Source: Halobellus captivus
GTDB lineage: Archaea; Halobacteriota; Halobacteria; Halobacteriales; Haloferacaceae
Direction of reading: 5' to 3'
DNA length: 64,000 bases
Assembly (NCBI RefSeq): GCF_003697845.1
Contig: NZ_RDQE01000002.1
Coordinates: 124,001 to 188,000 of the forward strand
Positions 51,716 through 58,096 of the stretch are shown here, piece by piece; the stretch's first letter is position 1; every line of letters begins with the position of its first letter. The position numbers were made by a program, and so were the translations under genes. The notes beneath the pieces are model-generated. The model was given only the letters and a program-made list of their open reading frames with translations, was not told the DNA's origin and ran no database searches.

Positions 51716-51998
51716 ACCGGGCGGTCGGCCCCTGACGACTAATAGCTACGCCGGCGGTTCCGTGGCGTCCGTCGATTCCGACCGACGGTCCCAGCCGATG
51801 GCTCCAGCCGGCAGTCCTGGCCAGCGATCCCGATCCTCGACGTTCGACCGCGGACCTACCGAGCTGAATCGAGGTCAGAGATACCGTCGAAACGCGGTCT
51901 CCGCGGTCGAACGTGTGGCCTCGCCCCGCCGAGCCGGACGAGAGGTAGAAAGCGTCTTATACGTTGATTTCACACGGTATCCTGAGGAGTGTTATCAC
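51716..51998 (+). promoter_or_regulatory. Promoter region of the liv-type operon
   Basis: CTTATA at 51956-51961 is a TATA-like box preceded by GAAAGCG, about 38 bp before the GTG at 51999. That excludes upstream starts in the same frame. The rest of the 283-bp gap holds no recognised gene. Confidence 0.6.
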
Positions 51999-53111
51999 GT
52001 GAATATCTCTGAAACGTACGTCCGATACCGCCGATCCCTCGGCGAGGAACCCCTCGCCATCGGGGTCGTTCTCGTGGCCCTGTGGATGGCCTGGACCCTC
52101 GTGAGCGGGCTCGCGACGGGTGGGATCCGGGTCAGCAGTCTCGCGTCCCTCGTCTGGGACGGCTTGCTTCGGGGGCTGATAATCGGTCTGGCGGGTATCG
52201 GACTCTCGATGACGTACAGCATTCTCAACTTCGCGAACTTCGCACACGGCGATTACCTCACCAGCGGGGCGTTCGCCGGAATGGCCACCAGCTACCTCAT
52301 CGCGGGGATCGGCGAGAACAGCGTCGGCGCGCTGTTGCTCGTCGGGGCGGGCGGATCGGTGTTCGGCGGCGCGATCGGGATCGGCGTCACCACGTCGCCG
52401 GTCGCGGTCGCCCTCGGGGCGATCGTCGCGGGGGCCTCGACGATCGCGCTCGCGCTCGCGATCGACCGGTTCGTGTACAAGCCGATCCGCGACGAGAGCG
52501 GGATCGCGCTCCTGATCACGAGCATCGGCGTCGCGTTCGCGCTCCGGTACCTCATCCAGTTCGTCTTCGGTGCCGGCGTTCGGGGAACCACCGCGGCGGG
52601 ATCCGTCCCGCGGGTGAACGTTCCGGCGCTCGACGGGACCTTCCGGATCACCGCTCACGACGTCTCGCTGATCGTCGTCGCGGGCGGCCTCATGCTCGGC
52701 GTGCACCTGCTCTTACAGCGCACCAAACTCGGGAAGGCGATGCGTGCGATGTCCGACAACGAGGACCTCGCACGGATCACGGGGATCCCGACCGAGCAGG
52801 TCATCCGCACGACGTGGATCGTCGGCGCGGGGCTCACCGGCGTCGCGGGATACATGTTCGTCCTCTGGAAGGGGACGCTCGGGTTCAACGACGGGTGGCT
52901 CCTGTTGCTCTTGGTGTTCGCCGCGGTCATCCTCGGCGGCATCGGATCGATCTACGGGGCGATCGGCGGCGGCATCGTCATCGGGCTGACCGCCTCGGTG
53001 TCCGTGATCTGGATCCCCTCCGAGTTCGGCCGGGCCGCCGCGTTCATGGTGATGATCGTGATCCTACTGTTCAAACCGTCGGGCATCTTCAGCGGGAGGA
53101 CCACGGCATGA
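51999..53111 (+). CDS. livH: Branched-chain amino acid-type ABC permease LivH
   Basis: A 370-residue membrane permease with about eight to nine helices. The GTG at 51999 is the first start after the TATA box at 51956. LGLAGIGLSM-type helix and the ILNFANFAHGDYLTSGAFAG segment are the LivH signature. DRFVYKPIRDESGIALLITS and LGKAMRAMSDNEDLARITG contact the ATPases. The C-terminal helices end in LLFKPSGIFSGRTTA. Its stop overlaps livM (ATGA). Branched-chain amino acids are the family default, but urea and other amides are also transported by relatives. Confidence 0.93.
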   Translation: MNISETYVRYRRSLGEEPLAIGVVLVALWMAWTLVSGLATGGIRVSSLASLVWDGLLRGLIIGLAGIGLSMTYSILNFANFAHGDYLTSGAFAGMATSYLIAGIGENSVGALLLVGAGGSVFGGAIGIGVTTSPVAVALGAIVAGASTIALALAIDRFVYKPIRDESGIALLITSIGVAFALRYLIQFVFGAGVRGTTAAGSVPRVNVPALDGTFRITAHDVSLIVVAGGLMLGVHLLLQRTKLGKAMRAMSDNEDLARITGIPTEQVIRTTWIVGAGLTGVAGYMFVLWKGTLGFNDGWLLLLLVFAAVILGGIGSIYGAIGGGIVIGLTASVSVIWIPSEFGRAAAFMVMIVILLFKPSGIFSGRTTA

Positions 53112-54514
53112 GCGACGAAACTGACGCTGACGCCGTCGACGTCCGCGGGCGGATCGACCGCCTCCTCGACGGCGACGCGACGCTCGTGCTCGCGGTCCTC
53201 GGAGCGATCTACCTGGCGTACGTCCTCGCGGGGGTCGCGTTCGGCTACGGGCTCCGCGGACAGCTGAACTCGATCGCGAACCTCACGTTCTACATCGGCG
53301 TGTTCGGCATGCTCGCGCTGGCGTTGAACCTCCACTGGGGGTACACCGGGCTGTTCAACATCGGCATCGTCGGCTTCATGGGGATCGGCGTCTACGTCAC
53401 GGCGCTCGTCTCGAAGCCGCCGGTCGCACAGGGCGGCGCGGCACAGGTCGGCGGGTTCGGGCTCCCGCTCGGCGTCGGCGTCGTCGCCGGCGTCGTGGTT
53501 GCGGCCCTGTTCGGGCTCCTGGTGGCGCTGCCCGCGCTCCGGCTGCGGGCCGACTACCTCGCCATCGTCACGGTGGCGTTCTCGGAGATCGTCCGGTTCA
53601 CGATGATGTCCCGGACGTTCCAGTCGTACACCGTCCCGGACACGATCGACCTCACGGTCGCGGGCGTCCAGCTGTTCAGCTTCGACCCCGCCGCGGACAC
53701 GGTCGGTCTCGGCGGCGGCGGCGGGCTCATCCTGAACTACCCCGACCCGCTCGAGGCGCTGCTCCGGACGCTGTTCCTCTGGGAGCCGTACCTCGGGTTC
53801 GTCGGGTTCGTCCAGCGAACGCTCATTTCGAACAACCCGAAGCCCGTGATCGACGGGCTGGTCTACGGGCTCCTGCTGCTCGTCGGCGTCGGACTGTTCT
53901 ACCTCCTGCTCTCGCGGGTCGGAAAGTCGCCGTTCGGGCGCGTCCTGAAGGCGATCCGCGAGGACGAGGACGTCGCGAACGCGCTCGGGAAGGACACCGA
54001 CCGCTTCAAGCTCACGGCGTTCGTGCTCGGCTCCGCGCTGATGGGGCTCGGCGGGATCCTGTGGTACTCAAGCCGCGGGAGCATCACGCCGCCCTCGTTC
54101 CGGCCGAACATCACGTTCTTCATCTGGATCGCGCTCATCATCGGCGGCGCGGGCTCGAACACCGGCAGCTTCCTCGGCGGCGCGATCTTCGCCGGGCTGT
54201 TGTACGAGGGTCCACGGTACATGAAGAACCTCATCGAGACCGCGTTCGAGCTCGGCGACGCGCCGGGGAACTTCGGCACCGCGGTCGCGCCGATGGCCTC
54301 GCTCGACCCCGTTCCGTTCGTCCTGTACACGCTCGACAGCGTGAGCCAGCTCCGGCTCGTCATCATGGGCGTGGTGTTGGTCTGGCTGATGCACAACCGC
54401 CCGGAGGGACTGCTCGGCCACCGCAAGGAGACGGCCTCGAGCGTCGACCTCTCGCGACCGGGTGGTAGGGACGCGAACGACGCCGCGGCCGCCGACGGAG
54501 GCGAGAAGCGATGA
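53108..54514 (+). CDS. livM: Branched-chain amino acid-type ABC permease LivM
   Basis: A 468-residue permease, somewhat longer than bacterial LivM. The core motifs are ALALNLHWGYTGLFNIGIVG, ALPALRLRADYLAIVTVAFS and LKAIREDEDVANALGKDTDR (ATPase contact). An external loop of about 70 residues (SFDPAADTVGLGGGGGL) accounts for the extra length. The C-terminus has an acidic tail. Overlaps livH at the start and livG at the end by ATGA, so the four genes are translated as one coupled operon. Confidence 0.93.
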   Translation: MSDETDADAVDVRGRIDRLLDGDATLVLAVLGAIYLAYVLAGVAFGYGLRGQLNSIANLTFYIGVFGMLALALNLHWGYTGLFNIGIVGFMGIGVYVTALVSKPPVAQGGAAQVGGFGLPLGVGVVAGVVVAALFGLLVALPALRLRADYLAIVTVAFSEIVRFTMMSRTFQSYTVPDTIDLTVAGVQLFSFDPAADTVGLGGGGGLILNYPDPLEALLRTLFLWEPYLGFVGFVQRTLISNNPKPVIDGLVYGLLLLVGVGLFYLLLSRVGKSPFGRVLKAIREDEDVANALGKDTDRFKLTAFVLGSALMGLGGILWYSSRGSITPPSFRPNITFFIWIALIIGGAGSNTGSFLGGAIFAGLLYEGPRYMKNLIETAFELGDAPGNFGTAVAPMASLDPVPFVLYTLDSVSQLRLVIMGVVLVWLMHNRPEGLLGHRKETASSVDLSRPGGRDANDAAAADGGEKR

Positions 54515-55521
54515 GCGAGAGCGACGACACCACCGCCGACGGATCGGCGTCGACCGACGAACCGCTCGAGGACACACCGACCGAGAACGGCTCGGAACCG
54601 GTCGAGGACGGATCGCCGTCGGACGTGGGCTCGACGAACGAGAACTCGACCGATGAGAGCCCGGAGACGCCCGCAGGCGACTCGATGACGATCGAAGACG
54701 GCTCGATGACGCCCGAGGGCGGCTCACCGGAGGACGCGGACGTGCCGACCGGATCGACCCCCCTCGAGGTCGAGGGGCTTCGGAAGACGTTCGGCGGCAT
54801 CGTCGCCGTCGACGACGTCAGCTTCGACGTCGAGGCGGGAACGCTGACCGGGCTCATCGGTCCCAACGGGGCCGGCAAGTCGACCACGTTCAACCTCATC
54901 ACCGGCATGCTCGAGCCCGACGCGGGGACGGTCCGGTTCAACGGCGAGGAGATCACCGGGCTCGAACCGCACGAGATCGCGAACCAGGGGCTCGCACGGA
55001 CGTTCCAGATCGCCCGGGAGCTGGAGGAGATGACGGTCCTCGAGAACATGATGCTCGCGCCGAAGGGGCAGATCGGCGAGTCGCTGTGGCGGTCGGTGAT
55101 GCCGATCACTCGCGAGGCGGTGCGCGAACAGGAGACCGAACAGCTCGACCGCGTCTGGGAGGTGCTCGAGTTCTTCGAGATCGACCACCTCGCCGACGAG
55201 TACGCGGGCAACCTCTCCGGCGGCCAGCGGAAGCTGCTCGAGATGGCCCGCGCGCTGTTGACCGACCCCGACATGCTGCTCCTCGACGAGCCGTTCGCCG
55301 GGGTCAACCCCTCCCTGGAGAAGCGCCTTCTCGAACACATCCACGAGCTACGCGAGGAGGGGTACACGTTCCTCATCGTGGAACACGACATGGACCTCAT
55401 CATGAACAACTGCGAGCGGGTCATCGTCATGCACCAGGGCCGCGTCCTGAAGGACGGGACGCCGGCGGAGATCAAGGAGAGCGAGGAGGTCATCGAGGCG
55501 TACCTCGGGGGTGAGGTATGA
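54511..55521 (+). CDS. livG: ABC transporter ATPase LivG with an acidic N-terminal extension
   Basis: A 336-residue ATPase. The ATPase domain starts near residue 85 (LEVEGLRKTFGGIVAVDDVS). Walker A is GPNGAGKSTT, the LivG-specific GLARTFQIARELEEMTV follows, the signature is NLSGGQRKLLEMARALL and Walker B MLLLDEPFAG. Residues 1-84 are an acidic low-complexity extension (SESDDTTADGSASTDEPLED). The ATGA overlap with livM supports the long start; in-frame ATGs near codon 58 and 66 are alternatives. The extension is unusual for a LivG protein. Confidence 0.92.
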   Translation: MSESDDTTADGSASTDEPLEDTPTENGSEPVEDGSPSDVGSTNENSTDESPETPAGDSMTIEDGSMTPEGGSPEDADVPTGSTPLEVEGLRKTFGGIVAVDDVSFDVEAGTLTGLIGPNGAGKSTTFNLITGMLEPDAGTVRFNGEEITGLEPHEIANQGLARTFQIARELEEMTVLENMMLAPKGQIGESLWRSVMPITREAVREQETEQLDRVWEVLEFFEIDHLADEYAGNLSGGQRKLLEMARALLTDPDMLLLDEPFAGVNPSLEKRLLEHIHELREEGYTFLIVEHDMDLIMNNCERVIVMHQGRVLKDGTPAEIKESEEVIEAYLGGEV

Positions 55522-56222
55522 GCCTGCTCGAGGTCCGCGATCTGGACGCCGGCTACGGCGACCTCCAGATCCTCACCGACGTCGATCTCGACGTCGACGA
55601 CGAGGAGTACGTCACGATCGTCGGCCCGAACGGGGCCGGCAAGTCGACCGTGATGAAGTCGGTCTTCGGGCTGACGACCCACATGGGCGGGACGGTGACG
55701 TTCGACGGCGAGGACATCAGCGGGACGAAACCGGAGGACGTCATCCACAAGGGACTCGGATACGTCCCGCAGAACGAGAACGTCTTCGCGGAGCTCAGCG
55801 TCGAGGAGAACCTCGAGATGGGCGCGTACATCCTCGATGAAGTCCCACAGGACGCGCTCGGAACGGTGTACGACCGGTTCCCGATCCTCGAAGAGCGGAA
55901 GGAGCAACGCGCGGGGACCATGAGCGGCGGCCAGCGGCAGATGCTCGCGATGGGGCGCGCGCTGATGCTCGATCCGGAACTCCTGTTGCTCGACGAGCCC
56001 AGCGCGGGACTCGCGCCCGACCTCGTCGACGAGATGTTCGACAAGATAGACGAGATCAACGGGACGGGCACGGCGATCCTGATGGTCGAACAGAACGCCA
56101 AGGAGGCGCTCAGACGCTGTGACCGCGGCTACGTGCTCTCGAACGGTCAGAATCGGTACGAGGACGAGGGAACCGTGCTGTTGAACGACGAGGAGGTTCG
56201 CCGGGAGTTCCTCGGGGGCTAA
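55518..56222 (+). CDS. livF: ABC transporter ATPase LivF
   Basis: A 234-residue ATPase of normal length: LLEVRDLDAGYGDLQILTDV, Walker A GPNGAGKSTV, the LivF-type GLGYVPQNENVFAELSVEEN, signature MSGGQRQMLAMGRALM, Walker B LLLLDEPSAGLAP and EQNAKEALRRCDRGYVL. It pairs with LivG to power transport. It ends the operon; oligo-T tracts follow the stop by 10 bases and again 26 bases later. Confidence 0.95.
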   Translation: MSLLEVRDLDAGYGDLQILTDVDLDVDDEEYVTIVGPNGAGKSTVMKSVFGLTTHMGGTVTFDGEDISGTKPEDVIHKGLGYVPQNENVFAELSVEENLEMGAYILDEVPQDALGTVYDRFPILEERKEQRAGTMSGGQRQMLAMGRALMLDPELLLLDEPSAGLAPDLVDEMFDKIDEINGTGTAILMVEQNAKEALRRCDRGYVLSNGQNRYEDEGTVLLNDEEVRREFLGG

Positions 56223-56788: not shown

Positions 56789-58096
56789 TCAGTTCCCGCT
56801 GGAGAGCGCCTGCTCGATGACGTTGGAGTACGACGACTCGCCGATGTTGAAGCTGATCTGGTCGTACACCTCTCCGTCAAACTCGTCCTCGAACACGCCG
56901 GCGAACCGCTCGGAGAGCTGCTGTCCGTAGTCGTTGTTCACGTACAGCGTCGCGGCGGTCTCCGCCTCGAGCCGCTCGGAGGCGACCTGGGCCATCACCC
57001 GGCCCTGGAGCTGGTCGCTCGGGGCGGTCCGGAAGATGTAGTCGTCGTCCTCGAGGTTCGTCACCGACAGCGCGGTGCTGGACGGCGAACAACCGACGAC
57101 CTCGTTCGGGATCAGCGTCTCCTGACAGACAGGGACGTTCACCCCGGAGGAGGCGGTCCCGCACACCGCCGGGACGCCCGAACTGATCAGCGACTCCGCG
57201 CCGCTGACACCCTGGTCGGGCGAGGTGTTGGTGTCCTCGAACTGGGCGTTGACCGTCAGGTCGAGATCGGAGTCGTTCACCTGCTGGGCCGGCAGCTCGG
57301 CGGCGCGGATCATCGGCTGACCCGTCGACGCCAGGTCGCCGGTTTCGGGCAACAGGATCCCGACGCTCACCTCGCGGCCGAACCCGCCGGGAGACTCGTC
57401 GGCGGAGTTGCCGGCACCGTCGGGGTTCTCGCCCTCGAAGTTCTGCGTCTCGTCCACTGCGACCGAGTCGGCGTCCTGGCCCTGGAACTCCCAGATGGAG
57501 TAGGCCGCGGACGCGGGGTCGCCGTTCTGGTCGAAGTTGACGGCGCTCGACGCGCCCTGGTAGTTGATGTTCTCGCCGTTCGCGGCCGCCTCGACCGCGT
57601 CGAGGAACCCCTCCGGCCCGTACTCGGTCCCGTCGGGGTTCGCGATGCGTCGGAGCTGGTCGCGGATGGCAGTTCCGTCGTTCTCACCCGCGGCGACGTT
57701 CGCGAGGATGAGCGCCGCCGCCGAGTCGTACGACTGCGAGGTGAACACGCCGGGCGACTCGTCGTACGCGTCCTGGAACAGCCCTTCGAACGCCTCCTGG
57801 TTCGGCCCGCCCGCGGCCGGCGCGGTGCCGGTGACGTTGGCCATGTCGTTGCCGACCTGGCCCGGAAGCGCGGGATCCTGAAGCCCGTCCGGGATGAGGA
57901 TCTCCTCCTCCCCGTCGGACGCGCTGTAGTAGTCACGGAAGAGCTGGATGCCGCTCTCCGGGTAGCCGATGACCGTGAGGAGGTCCGGGGCGCCGCTTCC
58001 GCCGCCTCCACCGTTCCCCGAACAGCCGGCGACGCCGACCGCCCCGGCGACACCGATCCCCTTCAGTACGTCACGCCGTCTCTTGTGGTATGACAT
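56789..58096 (-). CDS. livK: Liv-type substrate-binding lipoprotein, circularly permuted
   Basis: A 435-residue binding protein. A Tat/lipobox signal is present: KRRRDVLKGIG, then VGVAGC with C25 lipidated, followed by a Gly/Ser tether. The order of the binding domain is reversed relative to the family. Residues 36-222 are what is normally the C-terminal half (PDLLTVIGYPESGIQLFRD, then SQSYDSAAALILANVAAG, then VNFDQNGDPASAAYSIWEFQ). A new linker (about 223-240) follows, and residues 241-435 are the normal N-terminal half (VSVGILLPETGDLASTGQPM, FRTAPSDQLQGRVMAQVASE, LYVNNDYGQQLSERFAGVFE), ending QALSSGN. It converges with livF and has its own promoter. Confidence 0.88.
   Translation of the reverse strand: MSYHKRRRDVLKGIGVAGAVGVAGCSGNGGGGGSGAPDLLTVIGYPESGIQLFRDYYSASDGEEEILIPDGLQDPALPGQVGNDMANVTGTAPAAGGPNQEAFEGLFQDAYDESPGVFTSQSYDSAAALILANVAAGENDGTAIRDQLRRIANPDGTEYGPEGFLDAVEAAANGENINYQGASSAVNFDQNGDPASAAYSIWEFQGQDADSVAVDETQNFEGENPDGAGNSADESPGGFGREVSVGILLPETGDLASTGQPMIRAAELPAQQVNDSDLDLTVNAQFEDTNTSPDQGVSGAESLISSGVPAVCGTASSGVNVPVCQETLIPNEVVGCSPSSTALSVTNLEDDDYIFRTAPSDQLQGRVMAQVASERLEAETAATLYVNNDYGQQLSERFAGVFEDEFDGEVYDQISFNIGESSYSNVIEQALSSGN

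Follow-up and report, generated by a model that had tools for sequence, protein, structure and literature searches.

The binding-protein gene and its neighbours

The window, a stretch of 64,000 nucleotides from the haloarchaeon Halobellus captivus, holds a gene for a substrate-binding protein (SBP) at 56789-58096 on the minus strand, which encodes 435 amino acids between an ATG start and a TGA stop and is free of frameshifts. Transporter partner genes adjoin it, with two matches each to BPD_transp_2 and ABC_tran. Convergent with the SBP gene lies a gene for a livF-type ATPase (55518..56222, plus strand; ABC_tran), and on the same strand follow those for a livG-type ATPase (54511..55521; ABC_tran and BCA_ABC_TP_C), a livM-type permease (53108..54514; BPD_transp_2) and a livH-type permease (51762..53111 from the first possible start; BPD_transp_2 at residues 133-435). 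The livH reading frame possibly carries an N-terminal extension of approximately 130 residues; its domain begins at about residue 133, and the true start is probably downstream.

Read from its start on the minus strand, the SBP gene opens with residues 1-35 (57992..58096), which comprise a Tat-type signal (RRRDVLKG; weak Pfam TAT_signal match at 7-24), a lipobox ending in Cys25 (VAGC) and a Gly/Ser spacer. Next stands what is usually the C-terminal half of a Liv-type SBP (residues 36-222, 57431..57991), recognized from the order in canonical relatives and from the second stretch of the Peripla_BP_6 match. It is followed by a linker, ENPDGAGNSADESPGGFG (residues 223-240, 57377..57430), which lies between the matched halves and connects the old C-terminus to the old N-terminus. 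The usual N-terminal half comes last (residues 241-435, 56792..57376), and the new C-terminus in front of the TGA stop codon (56789..56791), ...IEQALSSGN, lies at the loop cut by the permutation.

The Peripla_BP_6 profile (PF13458) matches the protein in two stretches (E 3e-29, 103 bits against a cut-off of 31.7), of which one places profile positions 1-190 of 343 at residues 242-434 and the second covers the other half. Among PDB sequence matches, chain positions 10-199 of 4n0q pair with residues 242-432 and, weakly, positions 309-336 of 3ipc pair with residues 178-205; by structure, residues 241-435 match positions 1-194 of 3ipc. Given that the N-terminal part of the family sits at the C-terminal end of the protein, and given these pairings, the order of the halves is swapped. 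The canonical N-to-C chain order of Liv-type SBPs, as seen in the profile and in canonical relatives that run N then C, is thus absent here, and we therefore file the protein as a permuted variant and not as an ordinary Peripla_BP_6 member. The original prediction had proposed this same arrangement of C-half, linker and N-half, with the halves at residues 36-222 and 241-435 and 18 residues between them. The swap is borne out by the profile order and the PDB pairings, the boundaries hold, and the linker comes to residues 223-240.

An AlphaFold model built from 42 permuted sequences only, without templates, reached a pLDDT of 85.1 and a pTM of 0.84. Its residues 241-435 superpose on residues 1-194 of 3ipc (Z 14.6, 2.1 Å over 192 residues) and also on 4n0q. 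Foldseek and VIA-align, both sequential aligners, cover one half only, and residues 36-222 lie outside their alignments.

Most likely, the protein is the SBP of the adjacent LivHMGF transporter, given that the locus layout (SBP> livF< livG< livM< livH<) is common to permuted and canonical loci and that both halves are conserved. As its ligand one would expect an amino acid or another small solute of that kind. In Haloquadratum walsbyi, five of seven liv clusters have a livJ gene, which may or may not be a permuted one, with above-average expression (PMC5496347). It would be very surprising if the permuted protein had left transport to become a sensor or decoy: its gene is convergent with the livHMGF operon and not inside it, which would fit such a role, but in canonical relatives, too, the gene converges with livFGMH, and no sensor domain is attached to the protein.

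Conservation and gene orders among relatives

Relatives in the same order, for which the original prediction had proposed a search, are found across Halobacteria. A genome scan gave 77 loci in other organisms, most of them collinear with the window SBP from end to end, at 49-96% identity. The genera with a collinear copy include Halorubrum, Halorussus, Haloferax, Halobellus, Haloquadratum, Halostella and Haladaptatus, among others, and copies are present on the complete chromosomes CP040678.1 (Halostella pelagica) and NZ_CP122312.1 (Halospeciosus flavus). A full-length collinear copy (counted as a row with E<1e-100) is present in 109 of 170 genomes of Haloferacaceae, and the window type is frequent in further families of the order as well. 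Values of pN/pS between 0.04 and 0.37 in both halves indicate purifying selection, and the linker is generally looser, with P236 and G237 nearly invariant in the aligned window-type proteins. A lipobox is present in 116 of the 122 distinct window-type proteins sampled.

Although the window comes from a draft genome of 37 contigs, there is a negligible chance that the order reflects misassembly or that the gene is a rearranged relic in decay, given that collinear relatives at these identities in many genera, including complete chromosomes, exclude a misassembly (also at 57400-57450 in the linker, where one had been considered at the outset) and that the absence of stops and the purifying selection in both halves exclude a pseudogene. 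The earlier view of a working gene with intact halves and no frameshift is sustained by the uninterrupted reading frame and the pN/pS values, together with retention across genera, the confident model and the adjacent livHMGF genes.

The chain start of each relative was read by alignment to a doubled reference, and three orders were found. Canonical relatives (for example L075, L150 and L203) have the N-half first and no internal linker, the reverse of the window SBP, but they share its convergent layout and are approximately 47-57% identical to the rotated protein. They are widespread in Halobacteria, and the relatives read outside Halobacteria have the canonical order only. The window-type order (C, linker, N), here CPA, accounts for the majority of the sampled genes. 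In the second permuted order, CPB, the chain runs from about residue 40 of the N-half through the C-half and the linker to the first 40 residues of the N-half (L071:7860-9191, L072:7848-9191 and L076:2017-3387). CPB genes have their own Tat signal and lipobox and are known from metagenome-assembled genomes; an order-wide search found the order in 1 of 392 genomes, in a copy 98% identical to L071. An AlphaFold model of CPB from three sequences reached a pLDDT of 31 and was set aside. Given that the CPB genes have kept the same linker as the window's clade (FEGxNPxGxGxSA..xPGS) and have closed the CPA cut again, they look like the product of a second round of permutation. A further copy, L215, appears to share this order.

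Individual loci show other variations. Two permuted SBP genes stand in tandem in Haladaptatus (L057:8001-10805, L058:6521-9281 and L059:6509-9281); one copy has a lipobox, whereas its partner, with no Cys and little of the spacer, may therefore be a released, soluble form. In Halorubrum G120 (L141:4839-7640) a permuted gene of clade II (see below) is split by approximately 1.4 kb, possibly an insertion element, which separates the first part from the end of the N-half. Two nearly identical permuted copies lie on different scaffolds in Halorussus halobius (L013 and L014).

Number of permutation events

For the SBP trees all chains were first rotated to one order. In these trees the permuted genes form separate groups nested among canonical ones: clade I, which is the window's and is also represented in Haloferax, clade II (for example Halorubrum alkaliphilum, L068), clade III (L129 and L130) and clade IV (L135, L136 and L139). 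Trees of the N-half only and of the C-half only each contain four order changes and return the same permuted groups, which lends no support to a fusion of halves from different paralogues. The LivHMGF tree separates I, II and III+IV, with II adjoining canonical operons; the placement of L170, a deep row of clade I, is not settled in it.

A single clade is rejected both for all permuted SBPs (AU p=5e-5) and for all permuted operons in LivHMGF (AU p about 0), and given that this grouping is defined by gene order, the test is unaffected by post hoc choice. Smaller unions are also rejected, for the SBP (I+II, p=0.0011; II+III+IV, p=0.0014; I+III+IV, p=0.004) as well as for LivHMGF (II+III+IV, p=5.5e-5), with p-values that are somewhat weakened because these unions were picked after the tree had been seen. 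The union of III and IV is compatible with the SBP data (p=0.31); their separation is not enforced, and the count is therefore three at least. Linkers differ between the clades, with NPDGxGPSADSxPGG in I, ELTEEDxxATAEDPVGVD in II and AGDDIPQPEPSGSGSD in IV.

From these sequence comparisons, we infer at least three, and perhaps four, independent CPA permutations (I, II and III+IV), which would have opened the same short loop and closed the old ends with different linkers. CPB probably arose twice inside clade I. Its two lineages (L071/L072 versus L076) are rejected as one clade (p=2.5e-4); L062, the sister of L071, is window-type, so that one CPB gain followed by a reversion could also explain that part of the tree.

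An improbable alternative is that permutation happened only once and was followed by gene conversion from canonical paralogues, with the layout kept, or by many reversions. It would account for every clade being cut in one and the same short loop and for the similar linker lengths, and SBP paralogues do share genomes. However, the N-half, the C-half and LivHMGF give much the same split, the linker sequences differ among the clades, and approximately seven or more exact reversions would be needed when counted on the rooted tree. On such a tree, a single gain with many reversions is the costlier history, though still a conceivable one.

Anchor position and known systems

We consider it highly probable that the window gene, with its circularly permuted chain, encodes a functional, membrane-anchored Type I (Liv-type) SBP for the adjacent LivHMGF, and that such permutation has recurred in its family. 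In this rearrangement the 18-residue linker would have joined the ancestral C- and N-termini, and the chain would have been opened afresh in the loop that runs into the PDxxxVIGYP strand, by a route that probably led from tandem duplication through in-frame fusion to trimming of the outer parts. CPB would have taken a second cut inside clade I, in a loop approximately 40 residues into the N-half. Duplication does occur, as the tandem pairs of permuted genes in Haladaptatus demonstrate. Direct repeats that might mark the rearrangement around the window gene were only short and chance-like; beside permuted genes, no duplication intermediate was found, and no leftover half-gene fragments except for one interrupted gene and the copy L215. 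The permuted protein would still close on an amino acid or a similar solute and deliver it to LivHM.

Canonical Type I topology places the anchored terminus on lobe 1. Across all groups the CPA termini agree to within a few residues, the start falling immediately ahead of PDxxxVIGYP and the end behind the helix ...YSSxIxxAL. By correspondence with residue 194 of 3ipc and by the established Type I topology, this cut should lie in a helix-to-strand loop at the outer rim of lobe 2 and remote from the cleft, and the CPB cut should lie in an equivalent kind of loop in lobe 1. The lipid anchor would then shift from the lobe-1 pole to the lobe-2 pole in CPA and back to lobe 1 in CPB, and the cleft and hinge should stay as in canonical proteins.

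There is close to an even chance that the anatomy is as described and the permutation is selectively neutral, with a long, flexible Gly/Asp spacer letting an outer loop carry the anchor and tandem duplication making permutations common. The spacers are indeed long and of low complexity, permuted genes do stand in tandem in Haladaptatus, and several members of either order, permuted or canonical, have retained it although they have no lipobox Cys. However, three or four hits in the same loop would be more than expected if outer loops were equal, and the linker is partly conserved within clade I. A more doubtful proposal is selection on the anchor: its relocation would alter docking on LivHM, as the original prediction had suggested, or ligand exchange, and this would be why one loop was cut on three or four occasions and a second one on two. 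That one loop was used repeatedly points to a constraint, whereas members without a recognized lipobox in both orders (6 of 122 CPA proteins, one of them a contig-edge fragment, and 7 of 48 canonical ones) speak against the anchor as the whole reason. If selection on the anchor were true, Halobacteria would provide a natural experiment in anchor position.

The known Liv-type SBPs of Type I, cluster B (LivJ/LivK, Atu2422 as 3ipc, and the Brucella protein 4n0q) resemble the window SBP in both halves, in lipoprotein-type export and in the LivHMGF neighbourhood, and its usual N-terminal half (residues 241-435) matches their first-half fold by superposition. They differ in having the canonical order, with the anchored terminus on lobe 1 by known topology, compared with a predicted position on lobe 2 in the window SBP. 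A natural, circularly permuted and tethered Type I SBP has been described in Treponema pallidum, the glucose binder Tp0684/MglB-2 ('Type Ic / cluster Bc'), for which adaptation to tethering was raised as a possible cause of the permutation (PMC4990184). In that protein three N-lobe strands have moved to the C-terminus, the strand order of the C-lobe is unaffected and there is a fourth hinge crossing (PMC4990184). Both proteins are circularly permuted relative to Type I, but, compared by description, the window SBP moves the whole first half (3ipc 1-194) and is cut in the other lobe. Glycine-betaine SBPs (OpuAC versus ProX) form a circular-permutation family with <24% identity between the compared members; they share permutation within SBPs but belong to a different SBP class, and the portion of that source considered here describes no repeated events at one loop (PMC2395249). 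Circular permutation of SBPs is thus already known; in the literature searched, most subscription journals being outside it, we found no report of permuted Liv-type or archaeal SBPs, nor of recurrent permutation at one loop or in one transporter family.

The label 'ABC transporter substrate-binding protein' hides this change of topology in a large share of haloarchaeal genomes. Canonical and permuted relatives at approximately 50% identity occur in the same layout, with replicate events and a second round. With these replicates in a shared layout, the origin of permutations, the preference for one loop and any role of anchor position in ABC import become accessible to study.

Among the canonical SBPs of outgroup archaea, two (L198:2064-3515 and L201:4920-6404) have a C-terminal hydrophobic segment with a basic tail, which suggests a membrane anchor in place of the N-terminal lipid.
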